Shown: one piece after another, positions 44,010 through 61,475 of the stretch | How the letters are laid out: each line of letters starts with the position of its first letter | How positions within the stretch are numbered: position 1 is the stretch's first letter | Notes under the pieces: model-generated | The model's database searches: none | Seen by the model: only the letters and a program-made list of their open reading frames with translations | What the model was told of the DNA's origin: nothing | Program-made: the position numbers and the translations under genes | DNA from: an uncultured Actinomycetes bacterium | GTDB taxonomy: Bacteria; Actinomycetota; Acidimicrobiia; Acidimicrobiales; RAAP-2 | Direction of reading: 5' to 3' | Length of the DNA stretch: 64,000 bases | NCBI GenBank assembly: GCA_903828785.1 | Contig: CAIKNP010000003.1 | Location: forward strand, 1 to 64,000

Positions 44010-45434
44010 ATGTCAATTCCTCCGGTCCCATCTCGATCTTTCCCCAAGAGCTTCCTCTGGGGAACGGCAACGGCTTCGTACCAAATCGAAGGAGCCATCA
44101 CCGAGGACGGACGTACGCCGTCGATTTGGGACACCTTCAGCGCGACGCCCGGCAAGGTGACTAACGGCGACACCGGTGAAATGGCCTGCGACCACTACCA
44201 CCGGTGGAGTGAGGACCTCGACATTCTGGCCGACCTCGGTGTCGGTGCCTATCGCTTCTCGATCGCGTGGCCGCGCATTCACCCCGAGGTTTCCGGTCCC
44301 GCGAATCAAAAGGGTCTCGACTTTTACCAGCGATTGATTGACGGGCTGCGAGATCGAAATATTACGCCCTTGCCGACCATGTACCACTGGGACTTGCCCC
44401 AGGCGCTCGAGGACCAGGGTGGCTGGGCGAACCGTGAAACGGCCCTTCGCTTCGCGGACTACGCCGCGACCGTCCTGGAGGAACTCGACGGAATTGAAAA
44501 ATGGACCACCTTCAACGAGCCCTGGTGCAGCGCCTGGCTGGGATACGGCTACGGCATCCACGCACCGGGGCGCACCGACATTGGAGACGCCGTCCGCGCC
44601 ACGCACAATTTGCTCTTGGCACACGGACTGGGTGTGGAAGCGGCGCGCAGTCTTCGTCCTGACGTCGAGATCGGCCTCACCCTCAACCTTGGCGTTCATC
44701 GCCCCGGCACGAGTCATCCCGACGACCGGGCCGCTGCCTGGCGGGCGGACGGAAACACCAACCGTCTTTTCCTCGACCCCTTATTTCGTGGCAGCTACCC
44801 AGAAGACATGCTTGAGATTTATGCCGACACCAACGGCTTTGATGCGATGCGCGAAGGCGACCTCGCGCTGATCTCGGCGCCCATTGACTTCCTCGGTATT
44901 AATTTCTACACCCCAGGCACCGTCTTTGGCGCGGGCCGAGAGCAGCAGGCTCGCGAGGCGGGATTTAATCTGGGTCCGGCCCGTACCAGTACCGACAAGG
45001 ACTACCTACTCGCCATTGGCGCTGAGACGCCGGGTCGCCCCCAAACGGCGATGGGCTGGGAAATTGACGCTACTGCTTTGCGTGAGCTCCTAGTGCGACT
45101 CAAGAATGAGTACACCGCAGTCCCTCTGTACATCACCGAGAATGGTGCGGCGTTCCACGACTACGTTGACAGCAGCGGTCGGGTCCTTGACCCGGAACGA
45201 GTCACCTACGTTCACCAGCACCTCAGCGCCTGCCTCGACGCTATTGCCGACGGGGTGGACTTGCGGGGCTACTTCCTGTGGAGTCTTCTCGACAACTTTG
45301 AGTGGGCCTACGGTTACTCACGTCGCTTCGGAATTGTCTGGGTGGACTACGACAGTGGTCGTCGCATTCCCAAAGAGAGTTTCCACTGGTATCGAGGGGT
45401 CGTAACGACGAATGAACTCGACACACGCAGTTAG
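44010..45434 (+). CDS. bglA: GH1 family beta-glucosidase
   Basis: This 474-residue cytoplasmic enzyme (no signal peptide) would hydrolyse beta-linked glucosides from imported oligosaccharides. The family hallmarks are intact: SFLWGTATASYQIEGA at the start, the acid/base TFNEP with Glu170, and the nucleophile ITENG with Glu377. ATG 44010 follows GAAAGG; the frame is open upstream without family similarity. It sits between the GH16/Ig-like pair and a decayed receiver fragment. The gene name reflects the family, not a proven substrate; beta-galactosidase activity is also possible. Confidence 0.92.
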   Translation: MSIPPVPSRSFPKSFLWGTATASYQIEGAITEDGRTPSIWDTFSATPGKVTNGDTGEMACDHYHRWSEDLDILADLGVGAYRFSIAWPRIHPEVSGPANQKGLDFYQRLIDGLRDRNITPLPTMYHWDLPQALEDQGGWANRETALRFADYAATVLEELDGIEKWTTFNEPWCSAWLGYGYGIHAPGRTDIGDAVRATHNLLLAHGLGVEAARSLRPDVEIGLTLNLGVHRPGTSHPDDRAAAWRADGNTNRLFLDPLFRGSYPEDMLEIYADTNGFDAMREGDLALISAPIDFLGINFYTPGTVFGAGREQQAREAGFNLGPARTSTDKDYLLAIGAETPGRPQTAMGWEIDATALRELLVRLKNEYTAVPLYITENGAAFHDYVDSSGRVLDPERVTYVHQHLSACLDAIADGVDLRGYFLWSLLDNFEWAYGYSRRFGIVWVDYDSGRRIPKESFHWYRGVVTTNELDTRS

Positions 45435-45745
45435 TGCGACTGACGGGCACTGACCGCTGCATACCTTGCGAGGAACCCTTCGACCTCGTATTGATGGACA
45501 TGCAAATGCCGGTTATGGATGGGTTGACGGCCACCCGGCGCATTCGCAGTGATCACCGATTCGATCACCTCGTCATCATCGCCCTCACCGCCAACGCCCA
45601 AGTGGAATTTCGTGATCAGTGCCTGAAGGCGGGAATGAACGACTTCGCCACCAAACCCATTGACCCAACCACCCTGTTCGCCACGGTGGCTCACTGGATT
45701 GAAGTCAGTCGACGGCCCGTCGACGCCCCACCCCTCAGTCACTAG
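45434..45745 (+). pseudogene. truncated receiver domain, remnant of a hybrid sensor kinase
   Basis: The 103 codons match the C-terminal two thirds of a response-regulator receiver. The phosphorylated Asp lies in VLMDMQMPVMDG, and the conserved Thr (ALTANA) and Lys (TKPID) are also present. The first strand with its acidic pair and the linker of about 45 residues are missing, and the part before residue 15 has no similarity. The frame opens one base before the GH1 stop. Wording like MPVMDGLTATRRIR is typical of receivers fused to histidine kinases. It is probably a leftover, as it cannot fold as a full receiver. Confidence 0.75.
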
Positions 45746-46550: not shown

Positions 46551-47324
46551 CTAGAGGGTGGCGGCGTAGGCGGTCATCGAGAGAGAGCCCATGGCGCAGC
46601 CTTCGGCAATAGTCGAAACACGGGCCCCGCTGGCGGCCGCCATTCCGGCCAGGTAGGCCAAGGGCAAGAAGTGATCGGGGGTGGGAACCGCCAAGTGGTA
46701 GTCATCTGACTCGTCGAGCAAACCCAACTGGTCGGGGCGACTGATCATGATCTCGTGGGCGTCGCGGTCAAAGCGCTGCGCCCAGTTATAGCCCTGGTCA
46801 CTCCCCCAGGCAAGCGCTCGTAAATTGTGAACCACGTTGCCGGACGCCACCACGAGAACCTCGTCATTCATCAGCGGAACAAGACGGCTCCCGAGCTCGA
46901 CGTGGTAGTCAATTGGCTTGGTGGCATCAATAGCCAGTTGCACGACGGGAACGTCAGCCTCGGGATACATGTGCGCGAGCACCGACCAGGTGCCATGGTC
47001 GATGCCCCACGTTTCGTCGTCCAGACGAGTGACGGTCGGCTGCGCCAGTTCCGCGAGTTGCCGACCAAGTTCCGGTGAACCCGGCGCATTGTATTGAAAG
47101 TTCGAGAGCTCCTCAGGAAAACCCCAAAAGTCGTGAATCACCCGGGGGTGCGTCATTGAAGTGACGGCGGTTTCCCCAATAAACCAGTGGGCCGAAATGG
47201 CCACAATGGCCCGTGGCCGAGGGATGGAAAGGGCGTATTCACTCCAGGCGCTCGTCCACTGATTGGTCTCGATGGCGTTCATCGGACTTCCGTGGCCAAT
47301 AAAAATTGCGGGCATTGTGGTCAT
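46551..47324 (-). CDS. LigB/DODA-type extradiol dioxygenase (YgiD-like)
   Basis: This 257-residue protein belongs to the class III extradiol ring-cleavage family related to 4,5-DOPA dioxygenase. The zinc/iron ligands expected in the family are visible: His in FIGHGSP near residue 11 and in ISAHWF near residue 47, a conserved His in WGIDHGTW, and SGNVVHNLRALAW. A phenolic substrate is likely by family but not identifiable. It is the last gene of the long minus-strand array. Confidence 0.9.
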   Translation of the reverse strand: MTTMPAIFIGHGSPMNAIETNQWTSAWSEYALSIPRPRAIVAISAHWFIGETAVTSMTHPRVIHDFWGFPEELSNFQYNAPGSPELGRQLAELAQPTVTRLDDETWGIDHGTWSVLAHMYPEADVPVVQLAIDATKPIDYHVELGSRLVPLMNDEVLVVASGNVVHNLRALAWGSDQGYNWAQRFDRDAHEIMISRPDQLGLLDESDDYHLAVPTPDHFLPLAYLAGMAAASGARVSTIAEGCAMGSLSMTAYAATL

Positions 47325-47369: not shown

Positions 47370-48137
47370 TTAGATGACTGGAGAAAGTCCCCCATCGAGG
47401 GCGATACCGACGCCAGTCAGGTAACTCGCCCGTGGCGAGAGCAAGAACGCGGCCAGGTCGGCAAATTCCTCTCGACGACCAAAACGGCCAAGGGCAATAG
47501 CCGAACGTTGGGGGTGGTTGTCGTAAAAGTTCTGCTCGGAGATGCCAGCGGCCTCCGCCCGACGCGCCCACTGGCCCGACGCAATAAGACCAATGAGGAG
47601 GGCGTTGACCCGCACCCCCTGCGCGCCAACTTCAGTGGCTAAGGCTTTCGTCATGGCTAAGCCCGCGGCCCGGGAGGCCCCCGTGGGCATAGAACCCGCG
47701 TGCGGCTCTCGAGCCATTATCGCCAGTACGTTAACGATGGCCCCCTGGCGGACGATCAGGGCGGGTAGCGCTAAGCGACACATGCGCACGGCCGCTACCA
47801 CCTTGAGTTCGTAGTCCTCGCGCCACTGCTCATCGTCCGAATCACGTATTGACGCCGCGGCCGCCCGTCCCGCATTGTTGACCAGGCCATCGATCCCACC
47901 AAATCGTTCGAGAGTGGCACTGACGAAGGACTCGCAGTCGCCGGCGCGTGTGACGTCGGCTCGCATCACGAGGGCTCGGTCCCTCAAGAGTTCCTGCGCT
48001 CGGTCCAGGCGATCGCGGCTGCGTCCACAGACGGCGACTTGAGCACCTTCGGCAATCAGCCGAGTGGCCAGGGCCAAGCCCAGACCGTCCGTACCACCGG
48101 TGATAACCATGGTCTTCTGTCGCAGTTCGAGATCCAC
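47370..48137 (-). CDS. atypical SDR protein without the usual catalytic tetrad
   Basis: This 255-residue protein has the SDR fold. The NAD(P)-binding TGGTDGLGLA near residue 13, the NNAG strand and the C-terminal LTGVGIALDGGLS are intact. The catalytic positions are not: the Ser strand reads VNVLAIMA, and the YxxxK segment reads TGASR, so Tyr and Lys are replaced by Thr and Arg. The helix Asn is replaced by Lys (YELKVVAAV). I recall an actinobacterial/proteobacterial SDR subfamily with this kind of PT-x-x-SRAAG motif, so this is a lineage feature, not decay. Function is unknown. Confidence 0.8.
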   Translation of the reverse strand: MDLELRQKTMVITGGTDGLGLALATRLIAEGAQVAVCGRSRDRLDRAQELLRDRALVMRADVTRAGDCESFVSATLERFGGIDGLVNNAGRAAAASIRDSDDEQWREDYELKVVAAVRMCRLALPALIVRQGAIVNVLAIMAREPHAGSMPTGASRAAGLAMTKALATEVGAQGVRVNALLIGLIASGQWARRAEAAGISEQNFYDNHPQRSAIALGRFGRREEFADLAAFLLSPRASYLTGVGIALDGGLSPVI

Positions 48138-48301: not shown

Positions 48302-49069
48302 CTAGTCCATGAAGGCACCACCGTTAACCGAGATTGCCTCTCCGGTCACGAAGGCGGCGTCGTCAGAAAGCAAGAAGGCCACGACTTTGGCGACGTCTTC
48401 GGGTGTTTCCAGTCGGCCCAGCGGGGTGTCGTTCACCCACCCCTGTCGTACGTCTTCGACCGTTACACCGCGAAGTTCGGCTTCCCAGGTTTGTTCGCGG
48501 TCCATCATCGGTGTCGCGACGAATCCGGGACAAACCGAGTTCACACGAATCTTATGAGGGGCTAGTTCCAGGGCCATGGCCTGGGTGAGGCCCAAGACGG
48601 CAAACTTGGAGGCGACGTAGTCGGCAAGAAACGGGGCCCGGCCTTGCTTCGCGGCCATAGATGCGGTGTTGACGATCGCGCCCCCAGTGCCGAGTCGCAT
48701 CATGGCGCGCGCCGCCGACTGACCGCAGTAGAAGACACCGAAGGTGTTGATCTCAAAATTCCACTTGAGATCGGCGGGGCTGATGTCGACGAAGCGCTGC
48801 ATTTTCGACACCCCCGCGTTGGAGACCCACGCGTCCAAGCGACCGTGATGGCTCACGATCGCTCCGACAACTTCCTCCACCTGCTCGGGGCTGGTGACGT
48901 CGAGGGCCCGCGCGTCGGCGCTGGGGAGACTCGCCGCCAAACGCTCGGCACTGTCGAGATTGACGTCAGTAACCACGACGTGAAAACCACGACGACTGAG
49001 CTCGGTGGCGATGGCCGCACCTATTCCGGAACCGGCTCCGGTGATGCCAACGACGGGAAGGGTATTCAT
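48302..49069 (-). CDS. SDR dehydrogenase, probably polyol-specific
   Basis: This is a classical short-chain dehydrogenase of 255 residues with TGAGSGIGAAIA near residue 10, SNAG, the catalytic Ser in NTASMAA and the YVASK pair. The C-terminal block (TPLGRLETPEDVAKVVAFLLS, then VNGGAFMD) resembles sorbitol/galactitol- and butanediol-type SDRs. Its ATG overlaps the stop of the sugar kinase gene by four bases, so it is cotranscribed with that gene and with the BtpA-family and DeoR genes. A role oxidising a polyol to a ketose before phosphorylation is an inference. Confidence 0.85.
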   Translation of the reverse strand: MNTLPVVGITGAGSGIGAAIATELSRRGFHVVVTDVNLDSAERLAASLPSADARALDVTSPEQVEEVVGAIVSHHGRLDAWVSNAGVSKMQRFVDISPADLKWNFEINTFGVFYCGQSAARAMMRLGTGGAIVNTASMAAKQGRAPFLADYVASKFAVLGLTQAMALELAPHKIRVNSVCPGFVATPMMDREQTWEAELRGVTVEDVRQGWVNDTPLGRLETPEDVAKVVAFLLSDDAAFVTGEAISVNGGAFMD

Positions 49070-50535
49070 AGCTGACTCCTTGCGAGACTGTGACTTAGGC
49101 TGGTGGTGACTTCGCTCAGTTGCAGAAACTGTTGGTAACGCTCTTCGTAGACCGCGAGGTGTTGGGGGTTGGGCGAAATAATTTCGCCCGCCTCCAGGGC
49201 ACCACGAACGTACGCCCAGTCATCGATGAGGCCGCTCCCCAGACCGGCCAACACCGCCGCGCCAAACGAGGCCCCCGGATGATTAATGATCGACACCAGG
49301 TCACGTTGCAACACCGAAGCAAGAATTTCACGCCATAGGCGCGACTTCGAGCCTCCGTTGGTTACGCGGATACTGGTCAGCGTAACTCCGCGTTGGGCGA
49401 ACACGTCGGTGTGGGAGCGAAAGCCGTAGGCGATGGCCTCGAGGAACGCTCGATGCAGGTTTCCCCGACTACTTCCCAGGTGTAGTCCGAGCACCGCCCC
49501 GCGAAGATTGGGGTCGTGCAGGGGGGTCTTCTCCCCCAAAAAGTATGGGAGGGCCAGCAGATCACCGGGCGCCGAGTGCTGGGCTTCGTCATCCAAACTC
49601 GCTAAGTCTGCCCCACCCAAGAGGTCTTGCTCCCAGCGCAAAATCGAACCGCTGGTCGCCATGCAACCGTTCGGCAGCCACTGGCCCTCAATCGGGTGCG
49701 CGTCGAGATACAGGCGCTCGTCGGTGAAGAGTTGGTCGCTAACGGCCAGGATGTCCCCCGCTCCCCCGAGCTTGACCAGGGCGTCGCCGCCTTCGACCAA
49801 TCCCGCCCCGTAGGCACTGAGCACGTGATCAGCGCCGCCGACCACGATGAGCGTTCCCGCGTCTAGCCCCGTCTCTTGGGCGGCCTGCGCCGATACCAGC
49901 CCCAGCGGCGTACCCGGCCGCTCGACCGGGAGCAGTTCGGGCCAGGTGATACCGGTGGCGTCGACGACGGCAGCGAGCGGATTGAGGTGCAGCGAGTAGA
50001 GGCCGCTTTCTATAGCCCAATTCTGTTCCACGTGGGGTCGGGCGCCCAGACGCATCGCCAACCAGTCGTAACTGCCCATGACGAAGTGTGTACGTGCCCA
50101 CAATTCGGGTTCGTTCGTCGCTAGCCAGAGGGCGGTGGGCGCCACCGACTGCTGGGAGAGTACCGAACCCGTGAGCCCCAGGAGATCGACGTCGGCGAGG
50201 GCCACTCGCAAGGACGCAATTTCCTTCGTCGCCCGAGCGTCATTTTGCAGCAGGGCTCGCCGCAGCGCTCGACCCTGCGCGTCACAAATAACGACCGCCG
50301 GCACCATACCCGACACCGCCACCGCGGCGATGGGGCCCGGGCACTGATCACGCAAGGCGCGAATCGTGCTGGCCACGCCCCGCCACCACTGTTCGGGATC
50401 GGCTTCCGCCCAGCCGGGACTGTCGGAGTAGAGGTCCACCGCGTAAGAAGCGGAGGCCACGATACCCTTTTCAGGATCGACCAACACCGCCTTGACGCCC
50501 GACGAACCGAGGTCGAGCCCCGCCAGTACGGTCAC
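49066..50535 (-). CDS. FGGY family carbohydrate kinase (xylulokinase-like)
   Basis: This 489-residue kinase has the FGGY fold. The phosphate-1 segment AGLDLGSSGVKAVLVD lies at the N-terminus, and the C-terminal signature block reads RVTNGGSKSRLWREILASVL. The sequence is nearest to xylulokinase/ketopentose kinases by eye, but FGGY specificity is hard to read. The GTG start is three bases after the BtpA-family gene, and the next gene is a polyol-type SDR, so a ketose or keto-sugar is a likely substrate. Confidence 0.88.
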   Translation of the reverse strand: MTVLAGLDLGSSGVKAVLVDPEKGIVASASYAVDLYSDSPGWAEADPEQWWRGVASTIRALRDQCPGPIAAVAVSGMVPAVVICDAQGRALRRALLQNDARATKEIASLRVALADVDLLGLTGSVLSQQSVAPTALWLATNEPELWARTHFVMGSYDWLAMRLGARPHVEQNWAIESGLYSLHLNPLAAVVDATGITWPELLPVERPGTPLGLVSAQAAQETGLDAGTLIVVGGADHVLSAYGAGLVEGGDALVKLGGAGDILAVSDQLFTDERLYLDAHPIEGQWLPNGCMATSGSILRWEQDLLGGADLASLDDEAQHSAPGDLLALPYFLGEKTPLHDPNLRGAVLGLHLGSSRGNLHRAFLEAIAYGFRSHTDVFAQRGVTLTSIRVTNGGSKSRLWREILASVLQRDLVSIINHPGASFGAAVLAGLGSGLIDDWAYVRGALEAGEIISPNPQHLAVYEERYQQFLQLSEVTTSLSHSLARSQL

Positions 50536-50538
50536 GAT

Positions 50539-51342
50539 TTAGGCGCTTCGAGCGGCGTCCACGAAACGCTTAACCCGCTCGGGGTCCACTTCGTTCCAGG
50601 TATAGCCGTCGCGCTTGAGGTCCGAGCCCACAATGCAACCATCGGCGTACTGGAGGTACTTCGCGATGGTCCCGGACTTCGCACCGGTATTCAAGAGCAC
50701 GGGTACCTCGGGGTCGAGCGCGGCGCGCACCTCGGCGACCGTGGCGACGTCGGGCTCGGATCCCGCCATCGGGCCCGATACCAAAATGACGTCGGCCAGA
50801 CTAGAGACCACCGTCGACTTCGCCATTTGCGCCGGCGTGCGTTTGCCGATGGGTGAGGCAAACTCCGGGGTGATGTTGGCGAATATCGCCAGGTCGTCGC
50901 GGCCGAAATTTCGGCGGTCGCGCAGCAACTTCGCGGCGTCGGGCGTCCACGGCCCCATGTCGGATTCCCAGTAACCGTTAATCACCTCACGCATGAATGA
51001 CGCCCCCGAAGCAACGGCAATAGCCAAGGCGCACTGGGCGTCCCAAAGGTAGTCAACCCCAAAGGGGCGATCGCTGGGGCGGCACTCGTTAACGACGCGG
51101 GTCATCACCGCCGAGGCCTCGAGACCGGCGTTGAGAACGTAGGGCCGATCACCCTCATTGCAGAACAAAATGGCGTCAAAGCCTCCTTCGAGCAGGAGCT
51201 CGGTATCACGTTTGACGTGATCAACCAGCCCCGGCACACCAGCGGCGGTATCAAATAAGGGCGTGCCGGGCAGCGGGGGGACGTGGGCCATAGCGATTAG
51301 CGGCTTGGCTACTCCAGGGAAGAGTTGGGCAAATCGGGACAC
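50539..51342 (-). CDS. BtpA/SgcQ family TIM-barrel protein
   Basis: This 267-residue protein belongs to the BtpA/SgcQ family, known from photosystem I biogenesis in cyanobacteria and from an E. coli sugar cluster. Its enzymatic activity is not established. Visible marks are the MAHVPPLPGTP start, GVDYLWDAQCALAIA and NTGAKSGTIAKYL, followed by a phosphate-gripper-like GCIVGSDLKRDG. A barrel with a phosphate site would fit an aldolase or epimerase step on a sugar phosphate. It lies between the DeoR regulator (1-base overlap) and the sugar kinase. The GTG start lacks an alternative nearby. Confidence 0.85.
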   Translation of the reverse strand: MSRFAQLFPGVAKPLIAMAHVPPLPGTPLFDTAAGVPGLVDHVKRDTELLLEGGFDAILFCNEGDRPYVLNAGLEASAVMTRVVNECRPSDRPFGVDYLWDAQCALAIAVASGASFMREVINGYWESDMGPWTPDAAKLLRDRRNFGRDDLAIFANITPEFASPIGKRTPAQMAKSTVVSSLADVILVSGPMAGSEPDVATVAEVRAALDPEVPVLLNTGAKSGTIAKYLQYADGCIVGSDLKRDGYTWNEVDPERVKRFVDAARSA

Positions 51343-52121
51343 TACTTTTCCTCCTCGACGGTGGCGTGAACAATTTCCACATCAAATTCACGAATCGCTC
51401 GCACCACGGGGTGGCTGAGCGACGCGTTGGTGACCAGCACGTCCACGTCGCGAATAGGGGCGAAGGTGACGACGGCCACCCGTCCAATCTTGGACTCATC
51501 GGCCAAAACCACCACGCGACGGCCACTGGCCACCGCGGCGCGCTTCACTTCCGCGTCGTCCAAGTTGTACTCACAAAGACCCTTGGTTTCGGTAACGCCG
51601 GCCACGCCGAGGTACACGGAATCGCAGTTCAGTGTGTCAAACACACTTTCGGCGTGCGCGCCTATCAAACTCATTTCACCCAGACGGACGACGCCACCGG
51701 TAACTATCGTTCGAATTGCTGGTTTATTCGCTAATTCCATCGCAATGAGGAGCGAGGGCGTAATTACCGTAATCGGCAGCTCTGGCGAGAGCGCGCGAGC
51801 CATTTCGTGCGTGGTCGATCCACCATCAACAAAGACAGTCTCGTTTTCTCGTACCAGGGCGGCGGCGGCTCGACCAATGGCCACTTTTTCCCGAGAATGG
51901 TGCGAGGACCGCTGAAGAATAGGTGGTTCGAAGGAACGACTCTGCACCGAAATTGCGCCGCCTCGCGTGCGACGAGCGACACCACGCTCTTCGAGATAAT
52001 CGAGGTCTCGACGAATCGTCATTTCGGACGTGGCAAATTGTTTCGCCAACTCGACGATGGTCACCTCGCCGTCCTGTCGCAATTGCTCGGTAATGTCGAG
52101 TTTTCTCGCCTTAGAATCCAC
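51342..52121 (-). CDS. DeoR/GlpR family transcriptional regulator
   Basis: This 259-residue repressor has an N-terminal winged helix (VTIVELAKQFATSEMTIRRDL, residues about 20-40) and a DeoR C-terminal sugar-phosphate sensor domain (FVDGGSTTHEMARAL near 97, and the DESK motif VVLADESKIGR near 212). It heads the module with the BtpA-family protein, kinase and SDR, and probably responds to one of their phosphorylated intermediates. The GTG start at 52121 has no strong ribosome site. I found no clear operator in the 95 bases upstream. Confidence 0.9.
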   Translation of the reverse strand: MDSKARKLDITEQLRQDGEVTIVELAKQFATSEMTIRRDLDYLEERGVARRTRGGAISVQSRSFEPPILQRSSHHSREKVAIGRAAAALVRENETVFVDGGSTTHEMARALSPELPITVITPSLLIAMELANKPAIRTIVTGGVVRLGEMSLIGAHAESVFDTLNCDSVYLGVAGVTETKGLCEYNLDDAEVKRAAVASGRRVVVLADESKIGRVAVVTFAPIRDVDVLVTNASLSHPVVRAIREFDVEIVHATVEEEK

Positions 52122-52216
52122 CTGAGCATCTTATGTTACTTTCGCACACGATTTTTTCAATTCACCTGGTGGTTGGACGTAAGGGCCACGACCCGCAACG
52201 CCGCACTCACTGAGCC

Positions 52217-53227
52217 CTAGCTCGCGCGGCGTGGTTCTGGTCCGTCGAAATGGATCCACCCCAGACGGCTGTGCCAGTCACCCTTTTTGAGGGTTTCGAG
52301 AATGAATGACTGGAGTCGCGATTGCGGTCGCAGTTCTTCAAAGGGGACCAGAGGCTGGCGAAAGACGAACTCGAGCACGTTGTCACGGTCGTCGTGCCAG
52401 GTGGGCAAAAATGTGAACCGCTGCTGGAACTGGACAATGCGGCTCTCGGGTCCGAGAGCGGCGGCTAAGCGGTCATCCATCATCCACGATTCCAGGGTCA
52501 TTAATCGGCTCTGCGAGCAGGGCCACAGTACCCCCAGTACGCGACGGGCCCGCGCGAAGGTCTCGTCGACGGCCTCGGGTGAAAGGTCAATGAAGGCCGG
52601 AATGTGTAGACCCAGGGACTCGTCCCCGTAACGGAAACCTTCGCCCAGTTCTTGTTGCTGGGCTTCGTCGTACCAGGGTTCACAGGCCAGGATGCCGTGA
52701 CCCAGCGGGGTGCGGTGAAACTCCAAACTGCCCACCTGGACTATCTCCCCTCGCAATACCGGCAGTAGCCACCAACCGGCGTCCACGCCGACCGACCCCC
52801 ACTTCTGACGATGAATCTCGCCGTGACGGGCGAGCAGGCTACAGGTTTCACTAACCAGGTCGTCGGGTGCCCCCTGGTCGCGAAGCATCCTACGCAGACC
52901 CGGGGCCGCCATAGCGAAGACGTAGTAGTACAGCAAGCGGCCGCTCGTCCCATGGTCGTCCAAGTCGTCCCAGATCGGGAGAAGCGCAAGGTTGTTCCCG
53001 CGGTCACGTTCCACCATGGTCACCAGTTGAGCGAGTCGCCTCACCCAGGCCTCTTCAGTGAGAAAGGTGCTCCAGTGCGACAGAATTTCGTTTCGCGCGT
53101 CCAGCGGTATGTCGAGAATGCCCAATTCGTCGTCGAGGGAGGTGGACGTCGTCTCGCGAACCCTCGCCACCACCGACGCTTCGGGTGCGCCGAGGAAGTG
53201 CTCCATCTGATCGAGCGTGGTGGACAC
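52217..53227 (-). CDS. GNAT-like acyltransferase domain protein, substrate unknown
   Basis: This 336-residue protein resembles the family often called acyltransferase domain-containing protein (NAT_N plus GNAT_C). The resemblance rests on HIPAFIDLSPEAVDETFARA, the following LESWMMDD-x-LAAALGPES, and IVQFQQRF, where a motif such as CHSWLL-x-LP-x-SNI is typical. I recognise it from memory only. The first 150 residues are helical with acidic patches. It follows the GH20 gene by six bases, so it is probably cotranscribed with it. Acylation of an amino sugar is a guess from that position. Confidence 0.55.
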   Translation of the reverse strand: MSTTLDQMEHFLGAPEASVVARVRETTSTSLDDELGILDIPLDARNEILSHWSTFLTEEAWVRRLAQLVTMVERDRGNNLALLPIWDDLDDHGTSGRLLYYYVFAMAAPGLRRMLRDQGAPDDLVSETCSLLARHGEIHRQKWGSVGVDAGWWLLPVLRGEIVQVGSLEFHRTPLGHGILACEPWYDEAQQQELGEGFRYGDESLGLHIPAFIDLSPEAVDETFARARRVLGVLWPCSQSRLMTLESWMMDDRLAAALGPESRIVQFQQRFTFLPTWHDDRDNVLEFVFRQPLVPFEELRPQSRLQSFILETLKKGDWHSRLGWIHFDGPEPRRAS

Positions 53228-53233
53228 GAGTCT

Positions 53234-54760
53234 CTAGTCCAGCGGTCGAAAGCGCACGCCTCGGGCGGCGAGGCGCTCGAGGTGTCGCTCTAAGCGAGGT
53301 CGAAAATCCTCGACCGCCGTCGCACTCCCCCACACCACCTCCGCGAAGGCGCTGAGTCGGGGAAAGGTCATGTAATCGAGGTGATCGCGCGTCGCGATGT
53401 ATTCCGTCCAAATTTGCACCTGTGAACCACGCACGTGGTGGTGTAGGGATGGCTCGAGCTCGTCGGGAATCACTTGGAATCCGTACACCTTTTCCCAGGT
53501 CGTCACCCGGGGCAGCGGCGAAATGGCGACGGGCTCGTCGGGCTCGTCGCTATTGAGGACGTCGAGATAGAGAAATTGTTCTGGACACATGATCGTGTCG
53601 AGACCTCGGCGAGCCGCTCGGACTCCCTTGCTCGCGTTACGCCAGGCCGCAATGATGGTTCCCTCGAGCACGTCGGCGTCAAGCACTTCGTCCCAGGCCA
53701 CCACTTCGTGACCGTCCGCTTGCAGGGCCGCCCCCAGGCGCTCGGTGTAGAGCCCTTGCAACTCACCGGGTGTGTCGAAACCATTGGCCTCCATGATGGC
53801 CAAGGCGGAGGGACTCGCCGCCCATTCATCGCTGGGACACTCGTCACCGCCGATGTGCACGGGGCTACCGGGGAACAGGCTCGCGACGTAGCGGACAACT
53901 TCTTCGGCGAAGTCCAAGGTGGCGGGCTCGACGTTGAGGACATTGTGCGAAATGCCCCAGTGCGTCCACACCGCCAAGGGTTCGTCGCCGTTGCCAAATT
54001 CGGGGTAGGCCGCGAGCACCGCTTGAGCGTGACCCGGTAAGTCGATCTCGGGCATGATCTGAACGTGGCGCTTCGCGGCGTGAGCGTTGATGGATGCGAT
54101 ATCAGCCGCCGTGTAAAAACCTCCGTGAGGCACGTTGTCTTGCACCTTTTCGTCCTCGTGCCCCACCGGCGAACCGGAACGGTAGGCCCCCACGGTGGTG
54201 AGTCGGGGCCACGCCGGAATTTCCACTCGCCAGCCCTGGTCGTCGTTGAGATGAAGGTGTAAACGGTTTAAACGGTGCATGGCAATGAGATCGATCATGC
54301 GACAGACGGTCGCGACATCAAAAAAGTGACGTGACACGTCAAAGTGGCAGCCTCGCCACTCGAAACGTGGTTCGTCAACGAGGTCAATACCGGGTAAACG
54401 CCACTCGGGACAAGGCGACAAGGTCTCGCCAAAGAGCTCAACCGGACCGAGCTGGCGTAAGGCGGTGAGAGCGTAGGAGAGTCCAGTCGCCGTGGCGACC
54501 GTGATGTCCACCCGACCATCAACGCGGAGGGCGAAACCCTCGGCGGGCATGGACTCATCCACCCGCACCACGATGATCGCCGACTGCTCGTCACTGGAGC
54601 GCACATCCCAGCCAACGGCGTTGGCCAGATCGCTGGCAAAGACGGCCACGGTGTCGGCCAAGGCGGCGGGGGCGTGGACGTGCAGGGGCGATTGCAACAC
54701 CACCCCCGCGCCCGAATCACCAGAGACAAATCGTGGCTGGGGTAATAATTCAGGAAACAT
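53234..54760 (-). CDS. GH20 beta-N-acetylhexosaminidase
   Basis: This 508-residue enzyme removes terminal beta-linked GlcNAc or GalNAc. The catalytic Asp306-Glu307 pair sits in VHIGGDEC, and the family segments RLHLHLNDDQGWRVEIP and IMPEIDLPGHAQAVLA are intact. It has an N-terminal GH20b domain, and no signal peptide, so it acts inside the cell on imported sugars. ATG 54760 overlaps the ABC ATPase stop by 11 bases and follows GAAAGAG. The gene completes an ABC-importer operon. Confidence 0.94.
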   Translation of the reverse strand: MFPELLPQPRFVSGDSGAGVVLQSPLHVHAPAALADTVAVFASDLANAVGWDVRSSDEQSAIIVVRVDESMPAEGFALRVDGRVDITVATATGLSYALTALRQLGPVELFGETLSPCPEWRLPGIDLVDEPRFEWRGCHFDVSRHFFDVATVCRMIDLIAMHRLNRLHLHLNDDQGWRVEIPAWPRLTTVGAYRSGSPVGHEDEKVQDNVPHGGFYTAADIASINAHAAKRHVQIMPEIDLPGHAQAVLAAYPEFGNGDEPLAVWTHWGISHNVLNVEPATLDFAEEVVRYVASLFPGSPVHIGGDECPSDEWAASPSALAIMEANGFDTPGELQGLYTERLGAALQADGHEVVAWDEVLDADVLEGTIIAAWRNASKGVRAARRGLDTIMCPEQFLYLDVLNSDEPDEPVAISPLPRVTTWEKVYGFQVIPDELEPSLHHHVRGSQVQIWTEYIATRDHLDYMTFPRLSAFAEVVWGSATAVEDFRPRLERHLERLAARGVRFRPLD

Positions 54761-55730
54761 GGGACTCTTTCTCAACGGCGAAACACGAAACGCTCTGGGT
54801 GGCGGACAGGAAAACGGGGGTCGGGGTCTGGCTGCGGCACACGTCCATGGCCAAGGGACAACGAGGAGCGAAACGGCAGCCCGGTCCGGGGTTAATTACT
54901 TTCGGTGGCTCACCAAGATCAGCCACGTCGGTGTCCGCGGGCAGGGGTAGACGGGGATCGGGGGCGGTCGCCATCAGGAGGCGGGTGTAGGGATGTTGCG
55001 GTGACGCAATGACCTCCTGGGTCAGACCCTGCTCGACCACTCGTCCGGCGTAGAGCACAATCATTCGGTCCGCCACGTACCGTGCCGAAGCCAAGTCGTG
55101 CGTGATGTACAGAAGGGAAACGCCTTCACTGCTGCGCAACTCTCTCATCACGTTGAGCAGGCCAATTCGAATGGAGACGTCGAGCATGGAAACCGGCTCG
55201 TCGGCGAGAATCAGACTGGGCCTCGAAGCCAAAGCCTGAGCGAAACCAAGACGCTGGCGTTGCCCACCCGAGAGCTCGTGGGGGTAGCGCCGCAACACCT
55301 CAGCTCCGGGCAAGAGCCCCACTCGCTCAACGAGAGTGATGGCTTCCGCCTCACGCGCGTCCTTGTCCAACTCGGGACGGTGTAGTTTGAGCGATCGAGC
55401 CAAGCTATGACCAACCCGCAAGACGGGATTAATCGACCCGAAGGGATCCTGAAAAACCATAGGCATTTTGCCGCGAACGGCCCGGCTGGACTTTTTCCCC
55501 AGCAGCTTTCCCTCGAAGGTAATACTGCCGCTGCTTGGCGGATAGAGACCAGCCAGCACTCGCGCAATAGTTGACTTGCCCGAACCAGACTCGCCCACCA
55601 GGGCCACAATCTCGCCTCGGGCGACCACAAAACTCACCTCGTCAGTGGCGTGGAGCGTCCCGCCGTGGCGAAAGCCCCCCACGCGGAAATGGCGCGAGAG
55701 GTTTTCGACGCGAAGAATTTCGTCGTTCAT
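54750..55730 (-). CDS. peptide-type ABC importer ATPase (DppF-like), second system
   Basis: This 326-residue ATPase has Walker A (GESGSGKST, near residue 45), the signature [15 protein letters not shown], Walker B ([14 protein letters not shown]) and the oligopeptide C-terminal domain with [15 protein letters not shown] chose the ATG at 55730, which overlaps the stop of the partner ATPase (TGATG); the frame is open to 55760. It precedes GH20 and is the last transporter gene of the operon. Confidence 0.92.
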
Positions 55731-56698
55731 CACAACTCCCCACTCGCGACCAAATGGCAACGAACGAGGTGGCCATCAACCGGCAACAGTTCGGGGCGGG
55801 TGGTGTGACAGCGTTCGGTGGCGTGCGGACAACGAGCGGCGAAGAGGCAGCCCACTGGAGGATTCACCAGGGAGGGAGGATTCCCCGCAATACCTACCAG
55901 TTCACGCGGCTCACCCACGAGAGAAGGAAAGGCGTCCATTAAGCCGTTGGCGTAGGGGTGGCGAGGCCGGTCGAAGACGTCACGGGTCTTTCCTAGTTCG
56001 ACAATTTCCCCCGCGTACATCACCGCCAGTCGGTCGGAGAAGTGTGAGACGACACTCATGTCGTGCGTCACGAAGAGAACGGCGAAGCCGAGCTCGCGGC
56101 GAAGGTCTTCTACTTGGCGCATCAATGAGCGCTGGGCCACCACGTCGAGGGCCGAGGTCGGCTCGTCCATGATGACCAGCTTGGGATTGAGAATCAGGGC
56201 CATGGCAATCATCGCGCGCTGGCGCATGCCGCCCGAAAGCTGGAAGGGAAAACTATTGAGGTGCGCGGCGTCGATGGATACCATGGCCAGAACCTCGGCG
56301 GAGCGCTCAGCAATCTTGCGGTCGTCCCAGTCGGTATGGGCACGACAAGTGTCCGCCAGCTGTGCCCCAATAGAAATGGTCGGATTGAGTGCGTTCATCG
56401 CGCTCTGCATAACGACCGAGATGTCGCGCCAACGAAGTTGACGAAGCTCTTCGGCCCCCATGCTCGAGAGATCGCGACCCTCGAAGAGCACCTGCCCACC
56501 CACCGTCGATGCGGGGTAGGTCAAGAGTTGGGCGATCGAGAAGAGCAGGGTGGACTTGCCACAACCGGACTCTCCCACGATGGCCAAAAATTCCCCGGGG
56601 TGGAGGTCGAAGGAAACGAACTCGACGGCGTGCGCCGGGCCGCTGGCTGTCTCGTACTCCACGCGCAAGTCGCGAACTTGGAGAATCGCTTGGCTCAC
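55730..56698 (-). CDS. peptide-type ABC importer ATPase (DppD-like), second system
   Basis: This 322-residue ATPase has Walker A (GESGCGKST, near residue 41), the signature [15 protein letters not shown], Walker B ([14 protein letters not shown]) and the C-terminal [14 protein letters not shown]. The start is the GTG at 56698, which overlaps the permease stop (GTGA). The frame is open further upstream to 57031, but that part is the permease gene in another frame. Confidence 0.92.
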
Positions 56699-57597
56699 GA
56701 TGGCACCACCTTGGACGCGCGCCGCCGACTCACGGGCCGGAGCGCCGGGTTGGCGATTTCGTCGAAGGCGTAGTTCAAGAGAGCGAGGGCACTGCCCAAG
56801 ACCGCAATGGCGATGCCAGGGGCGAGCGCCCACAGGGGCAGACCGGAATAGAGTGCCTCGTTGTTTTGGGCCCAGTAGAGCATGGTGCCCCAGGACTCGG
56901 AGTTGATGTTGCCCAGACCAATGAACTGCAAGCCTGACTCGGCGAGCACCGCGTACAGGGCCGCCCCCAGAAAGTTCGCCACTATGAGTGACGTCATCGG
57001 AGGAATCAATTCGACACTGATGACGTACCACGCCGATTCACCTCGAGCCCGGGCGGCCAGGAGGTAATCACGATTGCGCAAGGAGAGCGCCTGCACCCGC
57101 AACTGCCGAGCGCCGTAGGACCAGCCAGTGATCACCAGTACGGCGACCATAAGCCAGAAGGTGGCACCCTTCAGGTAGGCGGTAATCACGATGATGAGGG
57201 GGAAGGTAGGTATGACCAGGACCACATCGGTGAAGAGGGACAGGGCGTCGTCAAAAATGCCGCCGATGTACGCCGCCGAAATTCCAATTACCACGGAGAT
57301 AACGGTGCTGAAGAGACCGACCAGCATCGCGACCATCATGGACTCTCGGGTTCCCGCCATAAGTTGCGAAAAGACGTCTTGACCAAAGGACGTGGTCCCG
57401 AGGGGGTGCGCCCAGGAGAGCCCCATCGCGGGAGTGAAAATTTCGGCTTGGGGGTCATCCAAAATGAACCAGGAGGGAAAGGCCGAAATCAGCAGGAGGA
57501 TAAAGAGAATAATTGCGCCCCCCATGGCCTTCTTGTCACGACGCAGGAAACGCCAGCTCGCCCCCAACACCCCCAGCGCTCGACGAAGAATGGTCAT
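56695..57597 (-). CDS. peptide-type ABC importer permease (DppC-like), second system
   Basis: This 300-residue permease has the DppC landmark LGTTSFGQDVFSQLMAGTRES near residue 68 and the EAA-type loop AARARGESAWYVISVELIPP near residue 180. About six hydrophobic helices are visible. It overlaps the upstream DppB-like gene (ATGA) and the downstream ATPase gene (GTGA), so the four transport genes are tightly coupled. Confidence 0.92.
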   Translation of the reverse strand: MTILRRALGVLGASWRFLRRDKKAMGGAIILFILLLISAFPSWFILDDPQAEIFTPAMGLSWAHPLGTTSFGQDVFSQLMAGTRESMMVAMLVGLFSTVISVVIGISAAYIGGIFDDALSLFTDVVLVIPTFPLIIVITAYLKGATFWLMVAVLVITGWSYGARQLRVQALSLRNRDYLLAARARGESAWYVISVELIPPMTSLIVANFLGAALYAVLAESGLQFIGLGNINSESWGTMLYWAQNNEALYSGLPLWALAPGIAIAVLGSALALLNYAFDEIANPALRPVSRRRASKVVPS

Positions 57598-58577
57598 CGG
57601 CTGTTACGCGTCCGAGGATCCAGGAGCGCGGTGGCCACGTCTGAGACAAAAATAGCCAGGAGCACCGCGACGGTGATGAGGAGGAAGAGAGCCTGCATCA
57701 GCGGGAAGTCCTGGGCGGAAACAGCGTTCAGCAACATAAAGCCAACGCCGGGGTAGTTATAGACGTATTCCACCAAAATCGCACCCGAAATGACAAAACC
57801 CAATGACATGGCGAATCCGGTGAGATTAGGGAGCAGGGCATTACGGCCGGCGTACTGCCAAAGGATGCGCGAGGGCTTAAGGCCTTTGGCGCGGGCCATC
57901 TTGACGTAATCCTCGGCGACGACCGTGATCATGTTGTTACGCATGGTCAAAATCCAACCGCCAATTGACGTAATCAAAATGGTGAACGAGGGTAAGACCG
58001 CGTGCTTGAGAACATCCAGGATGAAGGGCCAGGTAAAAGTGGGAATGGTTGTTGAGGTGTACGGTCCGACGAAGGGGAACCAGTTCAGCGTGAGAGCGAA
58101 GAACCAAATCGACAAGAGGCCCACCCAGAAGTAGGGGAAGGCGGAAATTACAATAAACATAGGTGGCAGCACGTTATCGAGCCATCCCCCTCGGCGCCAA
58201 GCGGCGATCGCCCCCAGCGAGGTACCAATGAGGAATCCGAGAATGGTCGACAGACCAACGAGTCCGAGGGACCACGGCAAGCCCTTGGCGATGACGGTAG
58301 TCACCGGCAGCGGGAAATTACTCGTCGAGATCCCGAGATTGCCGTGCAGCACATTGACCAGATACTGCCCGTAGGAAGCAAGGAGTGACTCTTTGGTGTT
58401 GATGCCAAAAGCCACTTCCAGCGCGTGAATCGCCGCGGGATTAACGTGGCCGCGGAAAGTGGCCATCATGGCCTCCGCGGGGTTGCCCGGCATAAGCCGA
58501 GGGATGAAGAAGTTAACCGTGACGGCTACCCACAAGGTAATGAGCAGAAAACCGACACGCCTAACTAGAAACTTCAT
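57594..58577 (-). CDS. peptide-type ABC importer permease (DppB-like), second system
   Basis: This 327-residue permease has the family N-terminus (KFLVRRVGFLLITLWVAVTV then FFIPRLMPGNPAE) and the EAA loop ARAKGLKPSRILWQYAGRNA. It follows the binding-protein gene by 33 bases. The pair of systems in this window shows the same subunit set, but here the binding protein comes first. Confidence 0.92.
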   Translation of the reverse strand: MKFLVRRVGFLLITLWVAVTVNFFIPRLMPGNPAEAMMATFRGHVNPAAIHALEVAFGINTKESLLASYGQYLVNVLHGNLGISTSNFPLPVTTVIAKGLPWSLGLVGLSTILGFLIGTSLGAIAAWRRGGWLDNVLPPMFIVISAFPYFWVGLLSIWFFALTLNWFPFVGPYTSTTIPTFTWPFILDVLKHAVLPSFTILITSIGGWILTMRNNMITVVAEDYVKMARAKGLKPSRILWQYAGRNALLPNLTGFAMSLGFVISGAILVEYVYNYPGVGFMLLNAVSAQDFPLMQALFLLITVAVLLAIFVSDVATALLDPRTRNSR

Positions 58578-58610: not shown

Positions 58611-60281
58611 TTAGGCCTTGGGCTTCAACTGGTCAACCACGTATCCCCAGTCAGGCTCCGCGTAGAGCGCGGGCTGAGCGTAGGGGTTCGAGGGCGATGG
58701 GAAGTTGCCGAAGTGCGTAGCGTTGAATTCGAACCATTCGGCGCTCTGGAGCACGGGGATGATCGGCGCAGTGGTGGCCATGATGGACTCCAGCTGGTTG
58801 ATAATCGTGTGCTGCGTAGCGGTCGAAGTGGTGGCTGCGTAATTGTTCAACAAGCTGTCCACCGCGGGGTTGTTGTAACGCTCCCAGTTCGAGGATGCAT
58901 CGGTGCCGATGGCGGCCGAGTTCTTCGAGTAGAGAGCCTGGCGGAACTCGTAGTAGGGCGATGGTCCACCGGTCTCCGAGTTGTACGCCAGCTGGTAATT
59001 ACCGGTGTAGATGTCGTTGTAGAAGGTCGTCGACGCGGGCAGATTCAAGGTGATCTTGAATCCAGCAGCGTTCAGCTGCTGCGTCATTACCTGCGCCGAG
59101 GCCACCCAGTCGGAGTAACCACCATTGGTCATCAACGAGAAGGCCAACTGCTTGCCATCCTTGGTCCAAACGCCGTTGACCTTGGCGTAGCCGTCAGCGG
59201 TCAAGATGGAGGCCGTCTTAGCCACGTCGTAGGACTTACCTAGTGACGAGGACACCGAGGCGGACAGCCACTTCGAATACGTTGGCGTCACGATACCGGT
59301 CTGATTCGACGGTGCTTCGTAACCGTACTCGCCAATGGTCGAAATCGCCGAGCGGTTCAGGGCGTAACTCATCGCCAAACGAACCTTGGGGTCGTCCAAA
59401 CCGGGGACCGTCAGATTCGGGAAGATTGACACGTTCGCGATGGCGGGGAACCAGTAGTTGTTGCCCTTGGCCTTGTTCACGTACTGCGTCTTAATCGAAG
59501 GGATGAACTGCGAGCCCCACTGACCCAGGCCTTGCGCGAGGTACTCGTTGCAGGTGTTGTTGGAAAGGAAGGCCGGGTAGTTAACCACTTGGACCTGCGC
59601 CATCCCCTTCTGCCAGTAGTTCTTGTTGGCGGTGTACTTGATGTTCTGCGGCGTGCAGTGGTTCATCACGTAGCCACCCGAACCAATGGGTGCGGTGTCG
59701 GTGTAGGTAACGGGGTTGGCGACCTTGGTCCAGAGGTGCTTAGGCACAATGGGCGTCAAGCCAGCCAAATAGTAGAAGTAGGGCACGGCGGAAGTCTTGA
59801 AGTTCACCGTCACTTTGTTACCCGAGCTTGAGACACTGGACAAGACCGACCACAAGGCATTGACGTCGAGGGCCGAGTGCGTCTTCAGCAGGTTCAGGGT
59901 GTAGTACACGTCAGCCGCCGTAAGAGGCGTCCCGTCGGTCCACATCGCGCCACTGCGAATAGTGAAGGTCACCGTCTTGTTAGCGTTGCTCCACACGTAC
60001 GACGAAGCCAGCCACGGGGTCACCTTGGCGTTATTCAGCGCGTCGACAAAGTCCAGCGTTTCGTAAACGGGACCAATAGAGAACGCCGAGTCCGTGGGGT
60101 TGAAGGGATTAAACGCGCAACCCCACAGGTTCCCTTGCTCGTTCGCTAGGTTCAGGGCAATTTGCGACGGCGCAGCACTAGCCACTCCGCTTACGAGCAC
60201 CCCCGGCGCCACAATGACGCAGGTACTCGCCACGAACGCGAACGCGGTGGTGATCATCCCCAACTTGAATTTTTTAATCAC
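58611..60281 (-). CDS. family 5 extracellular solute-binding protein, second system
   Basis: This 556-residue binding protein starts with a signal peptide (IKKFKLGMITTAFAFVAS, ending near GVASA) and has the SBP_bac_5 fold, with TVTFTIRSGAMWTDGTPLTA and VRLAMSYALNRSAISTIGE. No lipobox cysteine is visible. I chose the GTG at 60281, six bases after GGGGAGGAG; the frame is open back to 60332. It opens a unit with two permeases, two ATPases and GH20, so the ligand is probably a beta-linked amino-sugar oligomer such as chitobiose. A peptide ligand remains possible. Confidence 0.9.
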   Translation of the reverse strand: MIKKFKLGMITTAFAFVASTCVIVAPGVLVSGVASAAPSQIALNLANEQGNLWGCAFNPFNPTDSAFSIGPVYETLDFVDALNNAKVTPWLASSYVWSNANKTVTFTIRSGAMWTDGTPLTAADVYYTLNLLKTHSALDVNALWSVLSSVSSSGNKVTVNFKTSAVPYFYYLAGLTPIVPKHLWTKVANPVTYTDTAPIGSGGYVMNHCTPQNIKYTANKNYWQKGMAQVQVVNYPAFLSNNTCNEYLAQGLGQWGSQFIPSIKTQYVNKAKGNNYWFPAIANVSIFPNLTVPGLDDPKVRLAMSYALNRSAISTIGEYGYEAPSNQTGIVTPTYSKWLSASVSSSLGKSYDVAKTASILTADGYAKVNGVWTKDGKQLAFSLMTNGGYSDWVASAQVMTQQLNAAGFKITLNLPASTTFYNDIYTGNYQLAYNSETGGPSPYYEFRQALYSKNSAAIGTDASSNWERYNNPAVDSLLNNYAATTSTATQHTIINQLESIMATTAPIIPVLQSAEWFEFNATHFGNFPSPSNPYAQPALYAEPDWGYVVDQLKPKA

Positions 60282-60296
60282 AACAACTCCTCCCCA

Positions 60297-60313
60297 GGGG
60301 GCTCCGCGCCCCC
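60297..60313 (-). promoter_or_regulatory. hairpin in the leader of the binding-protein gene
   Basis: GGGGGC and GCCCCC pair over a five-base loop. The fold ends one base before the ribosome site GGGGAGGAG of the binding-protein gene. It could control translation or stabilise the 5' end of the message. Confidence 0.45.
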
Positions 60314-60329
60314 AGATTGTGGAACTTGA

Positions 60330-60407
60330 CACTGCAGTGCAACCTACGGTAGCAAGATTTCTCGAGGTGAGCGTGTGCTTCGCACAAAAACACTGTTCGG
60401 TACGAAC
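60330..60407 (-). promoter_or_regulatory. two palindromes upstream of the binding-protein gene
   Basis: CACTGCAGTG (60330-60339) is a perfect 10-bp palindrome, and GTTCG-GTA-CGAAC (60395-60407) has 5-bp arms with a three-base spacer. They lie 49-126 bases upstream of the GTG at 60281, where an operator would be expected. I did not find either one repeated elsewhere in the window. Confidence 0.4.
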
Positions 60408-60452: not shown

Positions 60453-61475
60453 TCAAGCCGAAAGTGTAACTTTGCGCAGTCGGGGTGATGTATCAATGGG
60501 TCGTCCACGGTACTCACCTATGCGCAAGGCCAGTACCTGGCCAATGATGACTTGCCCGAGACCCACCAGCCAGTTTGGACCACTAAAGGGCAACACAATT
60601 TCGGCATCGGCTCCGCTAAGGGTCCGGGAGGCTGGACGTAGGAATACGCAGAGCATCCCCGCCGCTTGGCTGTCGCGAACGGTGGCGGCGAGAACCTCGT
60701 CGCCAAGTTCGTCGGTAACCACCACGAGTAGGACGCATCGTTCGCCGTCAGCGCCGACCGGGCCGTGCAGGTAGTCAGATACCGCGTAGGATTCTGCGCG
60801 CAGCCCCGAGACTTCACGAATCTTGAGCGCAATCTCGCACGCCACCGCAAAGCCCACTCCTCGCCCAACCACAGTGAGCGCGGCCGCTTCGCCAAAGCGC
60901 TCAATCCCGAGGTCACCATCCAGAGCCCATTGAGTCACTTCTTCAACCATTTGGGGTATCTCGGCAATTCCGTCGAGCGGCTCGTCGCCCAGTGCGCTGA
61001 CCAGCTGGACCAAGGCGCACCACGAGGCGGTGAAGGTTTTCGTGGAGGCCACCGCAACCTCGGGACCAGTACCCAAGGCGATAGTCACTTGACTGGCCTG
61101 AGCCAAGGGCGACGCATTGTCGTTCGTAATACCCACCGTCGGGCGTCCTTGCGCCTGCGCTACCTCGAGCACTCGAGCAATACCCGGCGATCGCCCCGAC
61201 TGCGAGATACCAATAACTCCCGCCCCCGTAAGGTCCATGGCCCGTTCACTTTCGTATAACGATGACGTTGCCAGCGTTACCACGCGCCCTAGTTGCTGGC
61301 CAGCAAAGTACTGCAAAAATAGTGCGGCGTTGTCAGACGAGCCTCGAGCGGCAACGACGAGATAGGTGCAGTGTCGAAGGGCGTCCGCCGCCTCGGAGGC
61401 CTGTAACTGGCCCATCGACATGCGTGCTTCAAGAATCGCCGCTTGCGATCGTATTTCTTCTTCAAACTTCGTCAC
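60453..61475 (-). CDS. SIS domain sugar-phosphate isomerase/deaminase (GlmS-like)
   Basis: This 340-residue protein has two SIS domains like the isomerase half of GlmS: the first with ARGSSDNAALFLQYF (near residue 45) and ISQSGRSPGIARVLEVA, the second with VVGRGVGFAVACEIALKIRE and a LRAESY close to the GlmS HAEAY. Without the glutaminase domain it would act on fructose-6-phosphate or glucosamine-6-phosphate, as the NagB-II-like deaminases do. It starts with GTG at 61475 and sits in the same-strand run with an amino-sugar importer and GH20. A deaminase step is inferred. Confidence 0.85.
   Translation of the reverse strand: MTKFEEEIRSQAAILEARMSMGQLQASEAADALRHCTYLVVAARGSSDNAALFLQYFAGQQLGRVVTLATSSLYESERAMDLTGAGVIGISQSGRSPGIARVLEVAQAQGRPTVGITNDNASPLAQASQVTIALGTGPEVAVASTKTFTASWCALVQLVSALGDEPLDGIAEIPQMVEEVTQWALDGDLGIERFGEAAALTVVGRGVGFAVACEIALKIREVSGLRAESYAVSDYLHGPVGADGERCVLLVVVTDELGDEVLAATVRDSQAAGMLCVFLRPASRTLSGADAEIVLPFSGPNWLVGLGQVIIGQVLALRIGEYRGRPIDTSPRLRKVTLSA

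Follow-up and report, generated by a model that had tools for sequence, protein, structure and literature searches.

Members of the BtpA/SgcQ family occur in Escherichia coli, cyanobacteria and Thermus, and to our knowledge no reaction is known for any of them. The E. coli member, SgcQ, is encoded in the sgc operon, published with the gene order sgcXBCQAER (PMC5797941). This operon is induced on nitrogen-containing slow-growth carbon sources, its deletion caused no growth defect on 190 Biolog carbon sources, and its substrate was still not known as of July 2026 (PMC13343008). Here we describe a four-gene cassette encoding a DeoR-family repressor, a BtpA/SgcQ-family TIM-barrel protein, an FGGY carbohydrate kinase and a short-chain dehydrogenase/reductase (SDR), found in the first 64,000 nucleotides of contig CAIKNP010000003.1 (hereafter the window) of an uncultured Actinomycetes bacterium, whose genome assembly comprises 1.56 Mb in 28 contigs and is 96% complete.

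In kind, the cassette is a DeoR-regulated sugar operon, and no description of it was found in the literature searched. Our reading, to which we give about an even chance (roughly 0.5), is that in this freshwater or peat actinobacterium the four genes would be the catabolic half of a small regulon shared with an adjacent operon encoding a family 5 solute-binding protein (SBP5), a DppBCDF importer, a glycoside hydrolase of family 20 (GH20) and a GNAT-like protein, and would serve a beta-N-acetylhexosaminide route that passes through BtpA. This reading draws on gene content, conservation, an operator common to both operons in relatives, a predicted phosphate-barrel fold and a distinct kinase signature.

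Conservation of the cassette across phyla

The cassette genes follow one another with a 1-base overlap between DeoR and BtpA (TAGTG), a gap of 3 bases between BtpA and FGGY, and a 4-base overlap between FGGY and SDR (ATGA). Coordinates together with Pfam and NCBIfam matches bore out the four genes, the minus strand and the junctions given in a preliminary description of the window. All Pfam scores exceeded their cut-offs (DeoRC 160 bits, BtpA 209, FGGY_N 117, FGGY_C 87 and adh_short_C2 208); for BtpA, the scores were 208.9 bits with PF03437 (cut-off 30) and 197.4 bits with the NCBIfam BtpA/SgcQ model TIGR00259 (cut-off 153.4), while DeoR reached no NCBIfam equivalog cut-off. In a comparison with locus L002, all four genes were under purifying selection (dN 0.07-0.24, dS > 1.3), which was strongest on BtpA.

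A survey for the same gene order, proposed in the preliminary description, covered 80 loci from named genomes, plasmid loci, and 62 regions drawn by matches to a BtpA hidden Markov model (HMM) from relatives, Actinomycetota and Chloroflexota. Because calling of the longest open reading frames (ORFs) was noisy in high-GC loci, genes were located instead with tblastn and conservation-weighted picks. The exact chain DeoR-BtpA-FGGY-SDR, on one strand and with short gaps, was present in 41 loci, distributed over Actinomycetota, Chloroflexota and a Thermus plasmid, the last with an ABC importer directly after the chain. On this plasmid (L082), BtpA occupies 9001-9798, the kinase 9801-11273, the SDR 11266-12036 and a binding protein 12847-14109. 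Rearranged forms were found in the Alphaproteobacteria Rhizobium, Labrenzia, Shinella, Salipiger and Sulfitobacter, where the same genes surround importers of the CUT1 or CUT2 type, several of these loci also having a HAD phosphatase. Named relatives with an 81-91% identical BtpA were largely Acidimicrobiaceae-type and other actinobacterial metagenome-assembled genomes from lakes, peat and groundwater.

Within the HMM-drawn Chloroflexota sample, an FGGY kinase lay at most 5 kb from about 17 of the 37 BtpA genes (one of which was the seed picked for its module), against about 1.7% expected from the density of FGGY kinases in those genomes (binomial P for at least 16 of 37, approximately 3e-19). 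The corresponding figure for Actinomycetota was 2/16, as BtpA genes of other clades predominate in that sample. By sequence comparison, then, DeoR-BtpA-FGGY-SDR is a real, recurrent, cross-phylum and unnamed catabolic cassette, linked far beyond chance. The earlier suggestion of an unrecognised catabolic cassette with BtpA beside a sugar kinase thus gains from a linkage conserved across phyla, and from the predicted phosphate-binding barrel of BtpA presented below.

The upstream importer operon and its operator

The preliminary description reported no linked transporter, which does not stand: an ABC importer, a GH20 beta-N-acetylhexosaminidase and a GNAT-like gene are found immediately upstream, in a conserved gene order, and share an operator with the cassette in relatives (Table 1). 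Throughout the window's genus the cassette comes after SBP5-DppBCDF-GH20-GNAT on the same strand, GH20 being found there in 23 named loci; in three loci (L052, L055 and L061) GH20 is missing although the SBP5-Dpp importer stands next to the cassette. Within the importer operon, the gene of the NAT_N/GNAT_C protein (52217-53227) has kept its place next to GH20.

Table 1. Features of the cassette, the importer operon and their surroundings in the window.
Feature	Position	Strand	Basis
SDR, group of NADH-dependent 3-quinuclidinone reductase 3AK4	48302..49069	-	adh_short_C2
FGGY carbohydrate kinase, non-xylulokinase signature	49066..50535	-	FGGY_N, FGGY_C; motifs
BtpA/SgcQ-family TIM-barrel protein, SgcQ clade; predicted sugar-phosphate enzyme	50539..51342	-	PF03437, TIGR00259, AlphaFold2 model
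DeoR-family repressor of the cassette	51342..52121	-	PF00455 / PF08220; own operator upstream in relatives
Degenerate palindromic operator copy (GTGTGCGAAAGTAACAT)	52132..52148	-	About 10 bases upstream of DeoR; phylogenetic footprint, matrix score 9.3
GNAT-like N-acyltransferase (NAT_N + GNAT_C), importer operon	52217..53227	-	PF18082, PF18164; synteny
GH20 beta-N-acetylhexosaminidase; no evident signal peptide (by eye)	53234..54775	-	PF00728, 337 bits; synteny in 23 loci
DppF-type ABC ATPase	54750..55736	-	Conserved block; family from translation
DppD-type ABC ATPase	55730..56698	-	Conserved block; family from translation
DppC-type permease	56695..57597	-	Conserved block; family from translation
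DppB-type permease	57594..58577	-	Conserved block; family from translation
SBP family 5 binding protein	58611..60332	-	PDB matches; operator upstream in relatives
SIS-domain protein, NagB-II-like (glucosamine-6-phosphate deaminase)	60453..61475	-	Neighbour, outside the operator-bounded unit

The window SBP5 had the Vibrio chitin-oligosaccharide binding protein (CBP; 1zty, E 6.7e-51) among its best PDB matches, followed by a mannoside-binding protein (4pfu, E 1.9e-43). The SIS protein scored 165.4 bits with NagB-II, under the cut-off of 430, and a ROK-type kinase adjoins it in L099 and L104. The locus thus resembles Vibrio chitin-oligosaccharide uptake (CBP plus ABC importer) in its binding protein, in GH20, in the SIS protein nearby and in the ROK kinase of relatives. 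Unlike chitin systems, the importer operon shares its operator, in relatives, with a BtpA cassette, and we know of no chitin system that includes one.

Phylogenetic footprinting of the region upstream of DeoR revealed that the palindrome TGTGA-N5-TCACA is conserved and repeated about 31 bases further upstream, and in relatives the same tandem predicted operator (TGTGA-N5-TCWCA) precedes both the cassette and the importer operon. When five 20-kb loci were scanned with a matrix trained without these five test genomes, the only matches scoring 8 or more were those in front of DeoR or SBP5. When the whole genomes of two relatives (about 2.1 and 2.6 Mb) were searched, each held just two copies of the tandem pattern, one before DeoR and one before SBP5, and the reversed control gave 0 matches; the exact pattern was absent from the other eight genomes searched, including that of the window. 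A related tandem site was also detected in eight Microbacterium-like actinobacterial loci, before an operon of BMP-ABC, TRZ/ATZ amidohydrolase, DeoR, BtpA and FGGY genes. A CRP-type operator (TGTGA-N6-TCACA) was scanned for and dropped, the spacing being N5.

Several observations weigh against a hexosaminide regulon in the window genome. The operator ahead of the window DeoR is a weak, degenerate single site and the matrix scan found none ahead of the window SBP5; therefore the co-regulation of the two operons, shown by sequence in the relatives, is for the window genome something we infer despite the degraded operator. Motif similarity, which is not proof, points to DeoR as the protein that would bind TGTGA-N5-TCWCA. 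Several relatives have the cassette with neither GH20 nor Dpp nearby, and GH20 was not seen with the cassette in other phyla, so the link to N-acetylhexosamine (HexNAc) may hold for the window's group only. Finally, phosphatases are linked to the cassette in many lineages (IMPase in nine loci, HAD, and a calcineurin-like protein, by eye, in 14 loci of the SgcQ clade), and none of these stands beside the window cassette. The calcineurin-like phosphoesterase, of about 320 amino acids (L097:8660-9634, L140:4453-5418), lies next to BtpA and FGGY in 14 loci with an amino-acid permease, and it had no Pfam or NCBIfam match.

The importers near the cassette vary by lineage (Dpp/SBP5, CUT1, CUT2, BMP or amino-acid permease), and solute-binding-protein searches gave no cargo name for the CUT1, CUT2 or BMP types. 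Elsewhere, BMP nucleoside-type ABC importers occur with a TRZ/ATZ deaminase, and a nucleoside hydrolase, M29 or M42 aminopeptidases and a gamma-glutamyltransferase are also linked, all of them enzymes that could split conjugates. These partners favor the salvage of a nucleoside-like or other N-linked sugar, in which a nitrogenous group would be removed and the sugar would enter as a ketose-1-phosphate to be cleaved or isomerised by BtpA. The sugar enzymes known in the IF-2B family interconvert aldose-1-phosphates and ketose-1-phosphates, and genes of this family directly adjoin BtpA in two loci, L075, which lacks FGGY, and L121, whose BtpA belongs to another clade. The induction of sgc on nitrogen-containing carbon sources (PMC13343008) agrees with such a route. 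We nevertheless consider it unlikely for the window, where no such partner lies beside the cassette, and the variation of importers between lineages also counts against it.

Predicted functions of the kinase, the SDR and BtpA

No specific NCBIfam equivalog, either kinase or polyol dehydrogenase, was reached above its cut-off by the window kinase or SDR; therefore neither is a named enzyme. The kinase, the sole FGGY kinase of the genome, carries the signature GMVPA / QNDAR / NWAIES / GGADH, and typical cassette kinases share GM[VL]P[AT], QNDAR, NWA[LI]ES and GGADH. The signature is in essence that of PDB 3IFR as well. For the SDR, the models of L-iditol and sorbitol-6-phosphate dehydrogenases gave 184 bits (PRK07067, cut-off 338) and 170 bits (PRK12384, cut-off 307), and only the broad subfamily PRK07231 was passed (217.8 against 215). 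The module SDRs fall in the group of the 3-quinuclidinone reductase AtQR (PDB 3AK4), with which the Rhizobium module SDR aligned at 367 bits. We know of no natural role for either AtQR or 3IFR.

An ordinary pentitol pathway was weighed on these data. In it, the SDR would oxidise xylitol or arabinitol, the FGGY protein would be a divergent xylulokinase forming xylulose-5-phosphate, and BtpA would be accessory. As in the XylB pentitol and xylose operons, the kinase has the FGGY fold and finds its best NCBIfam match in XylB (TIGR01312), and the SDR resembles sorbitol/iditol and acetoin dehydrogenases; moreover, 3IFR, the closest PDB kinase, was placed under XylB in a 2011 study of FGGY kinases (PMC3245297). 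However, the XylB score of 295.9 bits falls below the cut-off of 380, and GM[VL]P[AT] replaces QMHG in 3IFR and in all typical cassette kinases. We take QMHG to be the sugar-binding motif of xylulokinases. A pentitol pathway would also leave BtpA, the most conserved of the four genes, without a role, and in relatives the operator ties the cassette to the hexosaminidase and importer operon. We regard it as improbable, slightly more so than the salvage of an N-linked sugar.

A sequence search of the PDB found no relative of BtpA. The AlphaFold2 model (pLDDT 93.2, pTM 0.92) was compared by fold, and all of the 1000 top chains had Z of at least 8. The best matches were ribulose-phosphate-binding barrels and their kin (GGGPS, KDPG/KDPGal aldolase, HPS, TrpF, ThiE and DHPS; Z 17-19); such barrels, including KDPG aldolase, GGGPS/PcrB, RPE, TrpF and TrpA, match BtpA over almost its full length, but at just 10-18% identity. 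Invariant residues gather at the C-terminal ends of the eight strands (H20, N62/E63/D65, W100/D101, R118/E119, N156/E160, G190, N218-T219-G220 and G239-S240-K243), and N218-T219-G220, G239-S240 and K243 are invariant in the module set. On this model, BtpA is a predicted phosphate-binding TIM barrel of the ribulose-phosphate-binding superfamily, with an enzyme-like active site and the signature of a phosphate site at strands 7-8. The fold alone does not single out a reaction. Strand 6 (185-189) together with its end reads DVILVSGPMAG, with no lysine; the Schiff-base lysine of KDPG-type class I aldolases stands at the end of this strand, and a mechanism of this type was dropped. BtpA may act on ketose-1-phosphates, by analogy, since the IF-2B sugar enzymes whose genes abut it make such compounds.

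That BtpA is instead a chaperone or regulator and not an enzyme is very unlikely. Cyanobacterial BtpA was named for photosystem I biogenesis, and SgcQ has drawn a 'PTS chaperone-like' remark (PMC13343008). Against this, the window BtpA scored 139.5 bits with the photosystem I biogenesis model NF045918, whose cut-off is 400, its invariant polar residues cluster at the C-terminal strand ends, and BtpA genes are linked to kinases and to the phosphotransferase system (PTS) in several lineages.

In the proposed hexosaminide route, the ABC importer would take up a beta-N-acetylhexosaminide and the cytoplasmic GH20 would free HexNAc, which ROK and SIS (NagB-II-like) enzymes could then process. The NAD-type SDR would oxidise the remaining polyol or sugar to a ketose, the FGGY kinase would phosphorylate this, and the SgcQ-type BtpA barrel would turn the sugar phosphate into a central metabolite by C-C cleavage or isomerisation. 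DeoR would repress both operons until a sugar-phosphate intermediate relieved the repression. This is the simplest reading of the locus, with the substrate, the order of these steps and the chemistry given to BtpA inferred.

Downstream of the cassette lie a second SDR (47370-48137) and a LigB-type 4,5-DOPA dioxygenase (46551-47324; NF007914 above its cut-off). Several relatives carry an orthologue of this SDR, a few kb downstream of the cassette or, in L007, directly adjoining it; the gene was left out as a cassette member, since other genes intervene in most relatives that have it. An ORF of 103 amino acids (45434-45745), between a GH1 beta-glucosidase and a thioredoxin-like ORF, resembles a response-regulator receiver domain reduced to its C-terminal part.

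The SgcQ clade and its implications

A quick tree of 119 BtpA rows, midpoint-rooted for display, placed all 71 FGGY-linked rows and E. coli SgcQ in one clade of 85 rows (SH-aLRT 98). The window BtpA belongs to it and carries E63, W100, E119, N156, E160, N218 and T219, which are conserved in this clade and replaced elsewhere in the family (N156 by D and N218 by G, each in 97% of the rows outside). The preliminary description had noted that its idea would fail if BtpA were rarely linked to such kinases elsewhere; this rarity applies to the other BtpA clades, which lie next to PfkB kinases, PTS genes or nothing recognised, and not to the SgcQ clade.

In L092, the co-occurrence of BtpA and DeoR with an M42 protein and an RPE-family protein, together with the published order of the genes, identified the sgc operon. 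Like the cassette BtpA, SgcQ has N62/E63, W100/D101, R118/E119, N156, E160 and the NTG motif, and sgc also links a DeoR-type regulator and a sugar-uptake system. It differs in having a PTS in place of the ABC importer and FGGY kinase, in its RPE-type epimerase and M42 peptidase, and in lacking SDR and GH20. From the common clade and clade residues, SgcQ probably does the same job as the cassette BtpA. A wider proposal, which we hold tentatively and at less than even odds, is that SgcQ-type BtpA would be a sugar-phosphate lyase or isomerase that has so far escaped assignment and whose substrates are probably ketose-1-phosphates. The enzyme would be common to E. coli sgc and to the cassette, which across phyla would serve the salvage of sugar conjugates containing nitrogen (chitin-type glycosides, nucleoside-like or aminoacyl sugars), with an importer and a conjugate-splitting hydrolase particular to each lineage.

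Other BtpA neighbourhoods were observed in the sample. An Anaerolineales locus (L081:170-4432) holds a HAD phosphatase, a HUMPS-family protein, a cassette-clade BtpA, an M42 protein and an SgcE-like epimerase, an sgc-like cluster with no PTS or kinase beside it. In L119, L120 and L121, a BtpA of a distant clade forms an operon with mannose-family PTS IID, Amidohydro_2 and IF-2B proteins, the IF-2B and BtpA genes of L121 overlapping by one base. Four loci (L094, L095, L096 and L116) combine another BtpA clade with a PfkB kinase, a phosphotriesterase-like protein, GATase1_like, TenA or a Zn-hydrolase, LacI and a CUT2 importer, a gene set that is a second unexplained BtpA pathway. In L106, L108 and L110, a BtpA about 35% identical stands beside an AAA_5 ATPase, a 700-amino-acid protein without a Pfam match and a lysine-decarboxylase-like (LOG-type) protein.

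With respect to the preliminary description, the linked importer, the conservation of the cassette across phyla and the operator shared in relatives are new. The cassette gives BtpA a likely substrate route, through the SDR and a distinct FGGY kinase, together with a candidate importer and a repressor with a defined candidate DNA site, and its Thermus version offers thermostable copies. Because it supplies these elements, the orphan sgc operon of E. coli and an unnamed nutrient pathway become testable through the cassette.

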